In this document: positions 49,761-52,133 of the stretch, one piece after another
How the letters are laid out: each line of letters opens with the position of its first letter
How positions within the stretch are numbered: the first letter of the stretch is position 1
DNA from: Flavobacteriaceae bacterium MAR_2009_75
GTDB lineage: Bacteria > Bacteroidota > Bacteroidia > Flavobacteriales > Flavobacteriaceae
Assembly: GCA_002813285.1 (NCBI GenBank)
Contig: PHTZ01000001.1
Location: 1,983,501 to 2,047,500, forward strand
Direction: 5' to 3'
DNA: 64,000 nt
Position numbers and translations under genes: made by a program
Notes under the pieces: model-generated
Told to the model about the DNA's origin: nothing
Database searches by the model: none
The model's input: only the letters and a program-made list of their open reading frames with translations

Positions 49761-50540
49761 TTAATCCATTATAATTTTGAACTGGTGCTTTAGCCCGTTA
49801 TACCCATCAAGATCCGCTTTAATAGCACCGACCGCCAAGTCTGCCTGAATTCGAATAGGAATTCTATTTTTATCAGCTGAAACCCAAAGAGAAAGACTTT
49901 CTTTTTCTTTAAAAACACGACCTGACTGCACCAGGGGCCTAAATTTATAACATTCTACTTTACCGAACTTGGTTTTAAGTACTTCAGTACCCAAATATTT
50001 CAACTGAAAGTTGAATATACCATCATCGTCGTATAACATTTTCAATTTTACCGCTTCGCCTTTTACTAATTCATCGGGGTCGTAGTTGTTTCTCAAATAA
50101 TAAAAAGCTGATATTAAATCTTGAACACCGTCTTGAAGTTCAAAATTATATTTTTTCTTGTTCTTTTTATCATTCAATACCGCAGTATCTTTTTCGTGGT
50201 CAAAGTTGATTTCGATATCCTTGGTATATCCTCCTTCATCAATATTGCGTATGAATTTGTAAGGCTTGCCGTCGCTTTTACCGAAATAACTTTCGTAAGT
50301 ATCATCGACCTTGAAAAAGAGACTGGCCAAACCTGTAGTTTGGCCTTTGCCCACCACATGGTAAACGGGCACATCGTTAATTTTATCAGATTTTAAATGA
50401 AGTGTGGCATAACTAGCATTCAAAAAGCCATAGTGCATTCTAAATTTCAACCATTCCCCTGGCTCAAAAGTCGAACTTTCATATTGGGCCTGAACAATAA
50501 AGCCAAATAATAGCATAAGTATTGTAAAGACCTTTTTCAT
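49761..50540 (-). CDS. DUF3108 family envelope protein
   Basis: This 259-residue protein is read from ATG 50540, giving a signal peptide (MKKVFTILMLLFGFIVQAQ). The DUF3108 pattern is clear: FEPGEWLKFRMHYGFLNASYATLHL, YHVVGKGQTTGLASLFFKVDD, VQDLISAFYYLRN and the C-terminal LWVSADKNRIPIRIQADLAVGAIKADL. The family is periplasmic or outer-membrane-associated with unknown function. It is the first gene of an apparent operon with tryptophan dioxygenase and the M23 peptidase. Confidence 0.85.
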   Translation of the reverse strand: MKKVFTILMLLFGFIVQAQYESSTFEPGEWLKFRMHYGFLNASYATLHLKSDKINDVPVYHVVGKGQTTGLASLFFKVDDTYESYFGKSDGKPYKFIRNIDEGGYTKDIEINFDHEKDTAVLNDKKNKKKYNFELQDGVQDLISAFYYLRNNYDPDELVKGEAVKLKMLYDDDGIFNFQLKYLGTEVLKTKFGKVECYKFRPLVQSGRVFKEKESLSLWVSADKNRIPIRIQADLAVGAIKADLDGYNGLKHQFKIIMD

Positions 50541-50671: not shown

Positions 50672-50777
50672 AAAAAAAAAGCCCCAACATTACTGTCAGG
50701 GCTTTTCCTAAATAACCAACCAAACTTTAAATTATGAAAAACCAATACTTAAAGTTGTAAGGGAACCACCCCTTACA
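50672..50777 (-). ncRNA. Candidate small RNA gene (~105 nt, three hairpins)
   Basis: The minus strand shows a complete small transcription unit. Promoter: TTG (50811 to 50809), exactly 19 nt, then TAAATTTG (50789 to 50782). About 5-7 nt later a perfect 8-bp hairpin begins (TGTAAGGG-N6-CCCTTACA, 50756-50777). It abuts a second perfect 8-bp stem (AACTTTAA-N18-TTAAAGTT, 50723-50756). The unit ends with an 8-bp terminator stem (50677-50706) and nine T. No coding frame fits. It lies between hppD and the DUF3108 gene. It could instead be a structured 3' region of hppD mRNA, but its own promoter argues for an independent RNA. I do not recognise it as 6S, tmRNA or SRP RNA; Flavo-1 cannot be excluded without a covariance search. 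Confidence 0.6.
50677..50706 (-). terminator. Intrinsic terminator of the candidate small RNA (and of hppD read-through)
   Basis: The stem AAAAGCCC/GGGCTTTT with a 14-nt loop is followed on the minus strand by nine T. No better terminator is seen between it and the hppD stop codon at 50991. Confidence 0.8.
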
Positions 50778-50781
50778 CCAA

Positions 50782-50811
50782 CAAATTTACTGCTTACTTT
50801 CAGACCACCAA
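50782..50811 (-). promoter_or_regulatory. Promoter of the candidate small RNA
   Basis: TTG-N19-TAAATTTG on the minus strand is an exact match to the Bacteroidota housekeeping promoter form, one of the two best in the window. There is no start codon and reading frame immediately after it. Confidence 0.65.
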
Positions 50812-50835
50812 CGTATTTAACTTACTTTAACTATT

Positions 50836-50990
50836 ACGTTAACAGTAATTTTTACTTACAAATGTAAAATTGGCGATTTCTTAAGAAATACCGTTATTAT
50901 GGGCACAAAGAACTAATCGGCCTGAGTATATTCCTACACAACAAAGCAGTTCTATTACCACAATGTTATTTTTTCAATTTCTCTTAGTTT
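50836..50990. other. Non-coding spacer with short palindromes after hppD
   Basis: This stretch has no gene. It holds a perfect 14-nt palindrome (ATTTCTTAAGAAAT, 50876-50889) and two short inverted repeats just before it (TTTTAC/GTAAAA and ATTAC/GTAAT). On the minus strand these lie in the 3' flank of hppD, upstream of the small RNA promoter, and might be part of a 3' untranslated region or a binding site. Confidence 0.4.
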
Positions 50991-52133
50991 TTAAAGAGTG
51001 CCTCTTGATTCTTGCTCTCTCTCAATCGCTTCGAACAGCGCTTTAAAATTACCTTTACCAAACGATTTAGCACCCTTTCTCTGTATTATCTCTATGAACA
51101 TAGTAGGCCGATCGAGAATAGGTTTGGTAAAAATCTGAAGTAGATAGCCTTCATCATCCCTGTCTATTAGAATACCTAATTCACTCAGCGGGGATAACTC
51201 TTCGTCTATTTCACCCACGCGATCGAGCACATCATCATAATAACTTGATGGAACGGTCAAAAATTCTACTCCTCGATTTTTTAATGAAGTTACAGTTTCA
51301 ATGATATTATCTGTAGCTAGCGCCATATGCTGTACTCCTGCACCATTATAGAATTCGATATATTCCTCTATTTGAGATTTTTTACGGCCGTCGGCAGGTT
51401 CGTTTATAGGAAACTTAATCCTACCATTACCATTGCTCATAACTTTACTCATGAGAGCGGTATACTCTGTAGATATATCTTTGTCATCGAAAGATACAAG
51501 TTGGGCAAAACCCATTACTTTGGCATAGAACTCGCACCATTTGTTCATTTCGTTCCAACCTACGTTACCAACGATATGATCCACATACTTAAGGCCACTT
51601 GAAGACGGTTGATAATGCGGTTGCCAGGCACGAAAACCAGGCATAAATACACCCTTGTAATCTTTACGCTCTACAAATACGTGAACTGTTTCGCCATAGG
51701 TATGAATTCCGGAAAGTACCACTTCACCATCGTCATCACTTATTGTTTTAGGCTCCATATAACTTTCCGCGCCCCTTTTAAGCGTTTCATTATAACTTTT
51801 GGCCGCATTATCGACCCATAAAGCAATGGTCTTCACCCCGTCGCCATGAGAATCTATATGTCTGTTTATTTCACCACCGGGTTTCAAAGGAGAGGTGAGC
51901 ACCAACCTTATTTTATCTTGCTGTAATACATAAGAGACCCTGTCTTTTAAACCTGTCTCTAGCCCTGCGTAAGCGAGAGGCTGAAAGCCCCAAGCAGACA
52001 TATAGTAGTGTGCTGATTGTTTGGCATTGCCCACGTATAGTTCAATATAGTCAGTGCCTAATAACGGGAGGAAATCTTCAGCTTCAAGATTCTCTTTAGG
52101 CAGGTGTAACGAGGTATTATCAAATGTTGACAT
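50991..52133 (-). CDS. hppD: 4-hydroxyphenylpyruvate dioxygenase
   Basis: This Fe(II) enzyme converts 4-hydroxyphenylpyruvate to homogentisate in tyrosine breakdown. The 380 residues contain two vicinal-oxygen-chelate domains. The iron ligands sit in KYVDHIVGN (His), GVQHMALATD (His) and FIEIIQRKG (Glu), and the C-terminal lid carries QESRGTL. It is followed, after a spacer with a candidate small RNA, by an operon that includes tryptophan dioxygenase. A TATTTTTG box lies about 170 nt upstream of the start; no better promoter was found. Confidence 0.96.
   Translation of the reverse strand: MSTFDNTSLHLPKENLEAEDFLPLLGTDYIELYVGNAKQSAHYYMSAWGFQPLAYAGLETGLKDRVSYVLQQDKIRLVLTSPLKPGGEINRHIDSHGDGVKTIALWVDNAAKSYNETLKRGAESYMEPKTISDDDGEVVLSGIHTYGETVHVFVERKDYKGVFMPGFRAWQPHYQPSSSGLKYVDHIVGNVGWNEMNKWCEFYAKVMGFAQLVSFDDKDISTEYTALMSKVMSNGNGRIKFPINEPADGRKKSQIEEYIEFYNGAGVQHMALATDNIIETVTSLKNRGVEFLTVPSSYYDDVLDRVGEIDEELSPLSELGILIDRDDEGYLLQIFTKPILDRPTMFIEIIQRKGAKSFGKGNFKALFEAIEREQESRGTL

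Follow-up and report, generated by a model that had tools for sequence, protein, structure and literature searches.

A widely conserved small RNA gene of the Flavobacteriaceae, absent from Rfam, with a candidate seed for translation starts

Introduction

Two small RNAs (sRNAs) of Bacteroides thetaiotaomicron are the closest described counterparts of the element treated here. As far as the available parts of the reports go, the R1′ seed of FopS (RF04319, BTncRNA_FopS) pairs with the translation start of susC and blocks translation in vitro (PMC11697453), and GibS, which bears the R1 part of the FopS seed, pairs with two start regions (PMC11697453, PMC7366714). The accessible section of a study of Flavobacterium johnsoniae describes messages without a Shine-Dalgarno sequence, whose initiation depends on the bases just before the AUG (PMC6847099). 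In F. psychrophilum, a mutant lacking rfp18 has less mRNA of two metalloproteases in stationary phase, according to the portion of the report at hand (PMC9723704). Here we describe an sRNA gene at positions 50672-50811 (minus strand) of a 64,000-nucleotide stretch from Flavobacteriaceae bacterium MAR_2009_75 (contig PHTZ01000001.1, positions 1,983,501 to 2,047,500; hereafter the window), in the spacer between hppD (stop at 50991) and a DUF3108 gene (ATG at 50540), and compare it with these systems. Flavobacteriaceae are important in marine polymer degradation and, to our knowledge, few of their sRNAs have a described function; among the papers listed in our literature search, Rfp18 was the only named sRNA of the family, and none dealt with DUF3108 together with a small RNA.

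Results

The spacer unit is almost certainly an RNA gene, judged by its own sequence and that of its relatives, and it represents an almost certainly real, widely conserved family of trans-acting sRNAs that is absent from Rfam and of a known kind. Its parts are the following.

50672-50777, minus strand: predicted sRNA transcript of about 106 nucleotides (nt), its start placed from the promoter (folding z −5.19).
50756-50777, minus strand: hairpin 1, with a GUGGU-bearing loop; arms TGTAAGGG (50777-50770) and CCCTTACA (50763-50756), plus one G-U pair.
50723-50756, minus strand: hairpin 2; arms AACTTTAA (50756-50749) and TTAAAGTT (50730-50723), with the proposed seed UUUUUCAUAA in its apical part.
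50713-50740, minus strand: core UUUUCAUAAUUUAAAGUUUGGUUGGUUA, in parts TTTTCATAATTTAAAGTTTGGTTGGTTA; the proposed anti-start-codon seed followed by the single-stranded GUUGGUUA.
50672-50708, minus strand: intrinsic terminator, its stem inside 50708-50677 and nine T up to 50672.
50782-50811, minus strand: predicted promoter, with the −33 TTG (50811-50809) and the −7 box TAAATTTG (50789-50782), recognised by sequence and identity.
50813-50845, minus strand: box TGTTAA-N7-GTTAAAGTAAGTTAAA directly upstream of the promoter (identity 0.81), a feature absent from the original prediction.

RNAfold gives three hairpins for 50780-50672, namely hairpins 1 and 2 and the terminator, at −39.8 kcal/mol, against −22.05 ± 3.42 kcal/mol for 200 shuffled sequences, none of which folded equally low. 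The original prediction, which a model had made from the letters alone, proposed an independent sRNA gene at this place. The two perfect 8-bp stems and the terminator with nine T that it named are present at the positions given, in agreement with RNAfold, and all coordinates of its TTG-N19-TAAATTTG at 50811-50782 check on the minus strand. It had also called the arrangement unlikely by chance, as the shuffles and the family-wide core, without a match in its reversed control, both confirm; a chance origin is ruled out by the fold, the core counts, the core shuffles and the identity profile described below. No open reading frame of at least 60 amino acids overlaps 50672-50811 on either strand, and insertions and deletions within the transcript among relatives break any reading frame, so that the prediction was right to find no protein explanation. 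A small protein was rejected as a candidate too: other groups have a changed version of MKNQYLKL, the eight-codon antisense frame at the core, and no sense frame outlasts the insertions and deletions.

The core was searched as TTTTCATNATTTAARKTTTN{0,3}GTTGGTTA, a pattern with one base and one gap free, and the reversed pattern served as the control. It occurs exactly in 99 of 397 family genomes (97 of the 330 of good quality; 58 of 237 genera), against none for the control, and in the window it has a single match, with none in 100 shuffles. A DNA search of the 397 genomes gave matches in 154 at E ≤ 0.001; many weak ones consist of the terminator alone, and for this reason the stricter exact-core count is used here. 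Retention of the core in a hundred-odd species makes a broad and old role likely. The pairwise identity of the closest family loci was profiled over 30 rows, which are a 31-row alignment without the truncated L028 (the duplicates L001-L003 and L007 are left out of the alignment, neighbour, core-list and downstream-element counts, and L010 also out of the neighbour and downstream-element counts). Upstream, the spacer has a mean identity of 0.44 and the TGTTAA-N7-GTTAAAGTAAGTTAAA box one of 0.81; the stretch between −33 and −7 is at 0.43, the −7 box reaches 0.92, and the next five bases fall to 0.40. Hairpin 1 stands at 0.93, the part running from hairpin 2 up to the terminator at 0.99-1.00, the terminator itself at 0.74 and the sequence beyond it at 0.27. 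On sequence grounds, such a profile is that of an RNA gene. The −7 box and the box upstream of it are conserved, and the spacers beside them are not.

A covariance model, R2, was built from A1, an alignment of 48 of the 72 core-bearing sequences; its E-values are approximate, and for searches over 40 genomes the filters are stricter. In its own genome the sRNA scores 118.3 bits, with the sequence itself in the model. In an order-wide sample, 42 of 50 same-family genomes match at E ≤ 0.01, a figure that counts eight listed same-family misses and, in line with the sort order, takes any unlisted miss for a more distant genome. Several of these matches are weak (G128 at 0.002, G586 at 0.008, G142 at 4e-4), and at least two, L313 (G142) and L322 (G128), look like chance on inspection. 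In genus g136, each of the 25 genomes sampled has a divergent form that matches at E ≤ 0.01, again with unlisted misses taken to be more distant, and the 20 loci read there all adjoin DUF3108. We infer that g136 is Flavobacterium, because the listed named genomes with the g136-type core are mostly of that genus: this core is found in at least 120 named stretches, and the matches listed comprise 104 from Flavobacterium, three each from Paenimyroides and Myroides, and ten others, mostly titled as Flavobacteriaceae or Bacteroidetes of no named genus. Among the listed matches, L165 is a contig titled Limnohabitans, a betaproteobacterium, and carries a Flavobacterium-type core; it is probably a misbinned metagenome contig. 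Outside the family, 34 genomes of the order sample pass E 0.01 (best 1.4e-4; the single locus inspected, L323, is chance-like) and three of the 198-genome phylum sample pass 0.001 (best 8.6e-5). As nothing outside the family does better than these two values, we take the range of the sRNA to be the Flavobacteriaceae. Twenty second loci were also read; L313, L315-L317 and L320-L323 look like chance or terminator-only matches.

Compensatory changes in both stems were among the checks that the original prediction had proposed. They are seen in hairpin 1, and in the terminator as well; hairpin 2 is nearly invariant and so tells little. The evidence comes from A2, which consists of 69 R2 matches, the A1 sequences included, from a search on 66 of 77 loci. 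A2 was fitted to the model structure, which favours it, but its covariation score of 0.400 is not reached by either kind of control: shuffling gives 0.164, with no shuffle out of 500 scoring as high, and sliding gives at most 0.091. Paired cells amount to 91.8% (79.0% shuffled), 29 of 33 pairs show a change on both sides (15.7 shuffled), and there are 280 such cells (73.9 shuffled). RNAalifold on the sequence-based A1 recovers only nine pairs, probably with the arms of hairpin 1 out of register. Eight of the nine pairs of hairpin 1 are changed on both sides, and its inner five are formed in 90.4% of the A2 cells; read by eye, this helix is swapped wholesale between groups (GTAAGGG/CCCTTAC, CAAAAGGG/CCCTTTTG, CAATGAG/CTCATTG, GGAAGG/CCTTCC), and GUGGU stands in its loop in 47 of 48 A1 rows. 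All 15 pairs of the main helix of the terminator are changed on both sides, with 97.1% of cells paired. In hairpin 2, 95.5% of cells are paired with hardly any change, so covariation says little on it. L008 and L057-L061 lack the left arm of this hairpin and still retain the letters of its loop and right arm, which argues that the sequence of hairpin 2 itself, and not only the stem, is under selection. In the Flavobacterium type, by eye, a small AUAAAUU-UCAU-AAUUUAU hairpin takes its place.

The claim of an independent gene with its own promoter and terminator is upheld by the conservation, the compensatory changes, tandem and relocated copies and the lack of a frame. By sequence, the unit is short and bounded by a promoter of its own, with a −7 box at 0.92 identity, and by an intrinsic terminator with both-sided changes in 15 of 15 pairs. 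The −33/−7 promoter of the original prediction stands in part: the elements are in place and the −7 box is conserved, but the −33 TTG is poorly so (0.43 over 50812-50790). An E. coli-style scan lists neither the sRNA promoter nor the terminator, and the promoter call is therefore based on the Bacteroidota consensus TAnnTTTG together with conservation. In the part of the F. psychrophilum study that was available, the sigmaA consensus TAnnTTTG sits at −12 to −5 (PMC9723704), which would put +1 of the sRNA near 50777, where hairpin 1 starts. The TGTTAA-N7-GTTAAAGTAAGTTAAA box is a probable activator-binding site of direct GTTAA repeats. With up to one mismatch, GTTAAAGTAMGTTAAA is found at the sRNA in all eight chosen genomes with window-like copies and has four matches elsewhere in them, three in a coding frame that by eye reads as transketolase and one other, against ten for the reversed control; no regulon of the box was found in this search of eight genomes. 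Among these genomes the direct-repeat box is thus nearly private to the sRNA gene, and distant groups retain chiefly one GTTAAA of it.

By Pfam, the window neighbours carry DUF3108 (PF11306, 199.9 bits), tryptophan dioxygenase and HPPD-type glyoxalase domains. A DUF3108 gene on the strand of the RNA is found downstream of it in 61 of 67 family loci, and in 99 of 101 of the named stretches listed with enough flank; hppD lies directly upstream in 40 of 67 and 86 of 91, respectively. Of the six loci without DUF3108 downstream, one (L062) is a copy in the 3′ untranslated region (UTR) of an hsp20 gene. As regards INDEPENDENCE from neighbours, which the loci bear out, L039, L040, L047, L048 and L055 carry the core without DUF3108 downstream; in L040, L047, L048 and L055 the next sizeable downstream gene is on the opposite strand, and L039 and L040, in a genome with three core copies (G032), are away from all window neighbour genes. 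Tandem duplicates of the whole unit, terminator included, occur in L020, L055 and L056. The RNA is kept where hppD and kynA are both missing, for example in L046 (uvrC, RNA, DUF3108, M23). A link with aromatic amino-acid degradation, which the original prediction thought conceivable, finds no support in these counts, given that hppD is directly upstream in 40 of 67 loci only and that copies exist away from hppD and kynA; nor is a regulator of aromatic amino-acid metabolism supported, as the RNA stays where either gene is absent or elsewhere. The closeness of DUF3108 may be sufficiently explained by inheritance of gene order, and this usual site makes the sRNA easy to locate and delete in a model flavobacterium.

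Two side observations concern these neighbours. Between the terminator and DUF3108, TTTGGAATAAATTTTG stands at 50623-50608 (minus strand); an element TTTGGWW-N4-6-TTTG before DUF3108 is present in 34 of the 67 loci of one set and 53 of the 94 of another, compared with 97 of 3440 control segments, and its Flavobacterium form, TTTGGAATAGAATTTGC, fits GG-N10-GC, the sigma54 pattern, so that DUF3108 may have a sigma54-type promoter. Near the RNA in L055, L056 and L088-L107 is a gene only 38-45% identical to the kynA of the window, so that the region seems to harbour more than one tryptophan-dioxygenase-like lineage.

Rfam 15 gave no match at its gathering threshold anywhere in the window, and 21 weak matches around the locus lie far below the cut-offs (for example MicC at 27.3 against 90 bits and FopS at 17.8 against 56), so that a known Rfam family was rejected. 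Flavo-1 and 6S-Flavo, presumably Rfam members themselves, are other structured RNAs of the group; the original prediction had asked for a comparison with both, and they have no gathering match in the window and are not among the 21 weak ones. Its description of the gene as new holds for Rfam, but an orthologue in Flavobacterium may already stand in the sRNA tables of PMC9723704 or of an F. columnare RNA-seq study (PMC5395568); this is probable, since none of the genomes sampled from the genus inferred to be Flavobacterium lacks the gene. In the parts of the literature that were available, the sRNA family, its covarying structure, core, promoter box and hsp20-linked relatives are undescribed.

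Discussion

Our preferred explanation, to which we give a probability of roughly 60%, is that the gene encodes an independent trans-acting sRNA of about 106 nt, present in much of the Flavobacteriaceae, that blocks translation starts by seed pairing. A sigmaA promoter, probably aided by an activator at the GTTAA box, would produce a transcript made up of the covarying 5′ hairpin, a hairpin with UUUUUCAUAA at its apex, the single-stranded GUUGGUUA and the terminator. The seed UUUUUCAUAA would pair in trans with AUGAAAAA starts. Its complement UUAUGAAAAA would be the message start of exported proteins (Met-Lys-...), for which such starts are common, without a Shine-Dalgarno sequence, and pairing there would keep the ribosome from binding, as with Bacteroides FopS. 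The precedent of FopS and GibS makes the start-codon mechanism plausible. The invariant UUUUUCAUAAUUUAAAG is the exact complement of CUUUAAAUUAUGAAAAA, by reading a plausible flavobacterial message start.

The comparison with FopS and GibS is limited to the accessible parts of their descriptions. The published FopS query sequence contains GTTTTTCATA, and the sRNA of the window has the same ten letters; this shared block of the FopS seed is suggestive only. Both RNAs contain the 10-nt GUUUUUCAUA, which in FopS belongs to the seed directed at a translation start, and both end in an intrinsic terminator; one FopS member is derived from a 3′ UTR, as the hsp20-linked copies described below may be. 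In contrast to the sRNA of the window, present in one main copy, with a pair of hairpins ahead of the terminator and its proposed seed in the second of them, FopS is 65-70 nt long, has 14 copies in B. thetaiotaomicron, carries a single-stranded 5′ seed and binds RbpB. Membership in the FopS family was rejected on these differences of architecture and partner protein and on the scores, which pass the cut-off in none of ten family genomes. GibS, also of B. thetaiotaomicron, resembles our RNA in being intergenic and conserved and in pairing through a 5′ seed with translation initiation regions, its R1 seed being the one extended by FopS; it differs in being 145 nt long, in the lack of structure at its 5′ end, in having both an R1 and an R2 seed and in its PM2 promoter. 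The sRNA of the window may thus work like FopS without being FopS, and its FopS-like seed makes start-codon pairing without a Shine-Dalgarno sequence testable outside Bacteroides.

Several results weigh against this explanation. Among 46 genes of the window, the seed paired with the starts not significantly better than shuffled seeds did (mean −11.88 kcal/mol against −11.24 kcal/mol), 8 of 40 shuffles were as low, and a similar gap between seed and shuffle appears in mid-gene. In its own genome TTATGAAAAAC has 21 sites (one in the sRNA gene itself) against 22 for the reversed control, and only about five of the 21 look like true starts. The complement of the 3′ half, TAACCAACCAAACTTTAA, taken with three mismatches, is rarer than its reversed control (83 against 130 in seven genomes, RNA removed); TTTAAATTATGAAAAACCAA is commoner than its control in seven genomes (51 against 20 sites), but natural start contexts could cause that excess. 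The resemblance to the FopS R1′ seed GTGTTTTTCATAGTATTAGATTTAAGG amounts to 10 of 35 nt in one block, which 37 of 2000 shuffles of the sRNA also reach. No protein of the FopS partner class, RRM_1 (PF00076, as in RbpB), was found in the own genome or in G183, with one in G136. On the structural side, the four outer pairs of hairpin 1 are formed in just 65.5% of the A2 cells. Neither the pattern searches for complementary sites nor the duplex test on the 46 window genes gave a reliable target list. As leads only, starts with the exact complement UUAUGAAAAAC were noted in L330, L337, L338, L343 and L344, of which L330 is SusD-like by eye, from its N-terminus.

Three other explanations deserve to be set beside seed pairing. 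The RNA might titrate an RNA-binding protein through its GGU and GUUGGU motifs (the loop GGUGGU and the single-stranded GGUUGGUUA) and pair with no message. The module GUUURGUURGUUA, or a close variant, occurs without the CAU seed before hsp20 terminators (L303, L302, L273), which indicates that the module has a role of its own. The CAU-bearing stretch is, however, equally conserved and would be needless for titration by GGU, and there is no candidate protein, RRM_1 being absent from the own genome and other protein classes not having been searched; we regard titration as improbable. A still smaller chance attaches to a role in cis, as 5′ leader or attenuator of the DUF3108-kynA operon, in which the terminator would be conditional and the hairpins would sense a signal. 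The constancy of DUF3108 downstream, compared with the less constant hppD among the 67 loci, is what such a leader would lead one to expect, but the leader should always lie 5′ of the same gene, and in six of 67 loci it does not. The five core-bearing loci without DUF3108, four of them (not L039) with an opposite-strand next gene, and the tandem copies complete with terminator make the RNA unlike a conditional leader of one operon; in addition, about half of the loci have a separate promoter-like element between the terminator and DUF3108, and the seed and single-stranded stretch are conserved at least as well as the stems.

The last explanation concerns identity rather than mechanism: the sRNA could be Rfp18, Rfp13 or Rfp15 of F. 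psychrophilum in another genus, which we consider rather unlikely, though a possibility to be taken seriously. By the available part of its description, Rfp18 is one of four sRNAs (Rfp11, 13, 15 and 18) that are both conserved in the genus and strongly folded (PMC9723704), and all 25 genomes sampled from the inferred Flavobacterium carry the RNA of the window. Rfp11 is an unlikely match because the same source lists it with an SM6 and not a sigmaA promoter. Compared by description only, Rfp18 and our RNA are alike as strongly folded, conserved sRNAs of one bacterial family. The reported pairing site of Rfp18 is its third stem-loop (PMC9723704), whereas the third stem-loop of our RNA is the terminator; that F. 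psychrophilum is not among the at least 120 named matches listed says little.

Related copies lie elsewhere. The 3′ UTRs of hsp20-type genes in G181, G012, G000 and G395 carry a terminator preceded by the 3′ half of the sRNA, either as TTTAAGTTTRGTTRGTTA or with one letter changed; that of G264 has the whole core, TTTTTCATAATGTTAAGTTTGGTTAGTTA, and those of G173 and G002 have TTTCAT and the module. PF00011 was found in the four hsp20-type proteins in which it was tested (L304, L305, L062, L273), and the others were matched by C-terminal sequence. The seven hsp20-type 3′ UTRs seen (L273 at G000:C1:815265, L303, L292, L302, L062, L304 and L305) end in the GTTTRGTTRGTTA module, or a close variant, and a terminator, some with the CAU seed. 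These are likely 3′-UTR-derived relatives of the sRNA. Genus g183 has short stand-alone copies (L307-L310; G183, G357), for example GATGAAGTTTTTTCATAATAGATTGGTTAGTTAAG, that bear a sigmaA-like box, and two of them stand in tandem; having the core directly before the terminator, they are closer to the FopS layout than the sRNA of the window. Two intergenic core-like copies with low scores, L311 (G134, 41.6 bits) and L314 (G168, 36.3 bits), come after TTTGGCACGGAGATTGC and TTTGGCATGAGTATTGC, which read as sigma54-like promoters of the pattern GG-N10-GC. In F. psychrophilum, predicted sigma54 promoters drive chaperone genes, according to the part of the study available (PMC9723704), and the related copies point to heat or envelope stress as a possible setting.

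A wider proposal, which we think has a low probability, would place the sRNA, the g183 RNAs, the hsp20 copies, L311 and L314, and FopS and GibS in one ancient Bacteroidota superfamily, with the UUUUUCAUA seed as a generic anti-start-codon device that couples heat or envelope stress to the repression of exported proteins. E. coli has sigmaE-dependent sRNAs that repress porins, and the superfamily, if real, would be their counterpart in this phylum. As a minor observation, two related genomes carry GTTTAGTTGGTTAGTTAGTTAG and a terminator in the 3′ UTR of similar genes (L306:393-1433 and L318:560-1489), of which the L306 protein, the one scanned, has no Pfam match.
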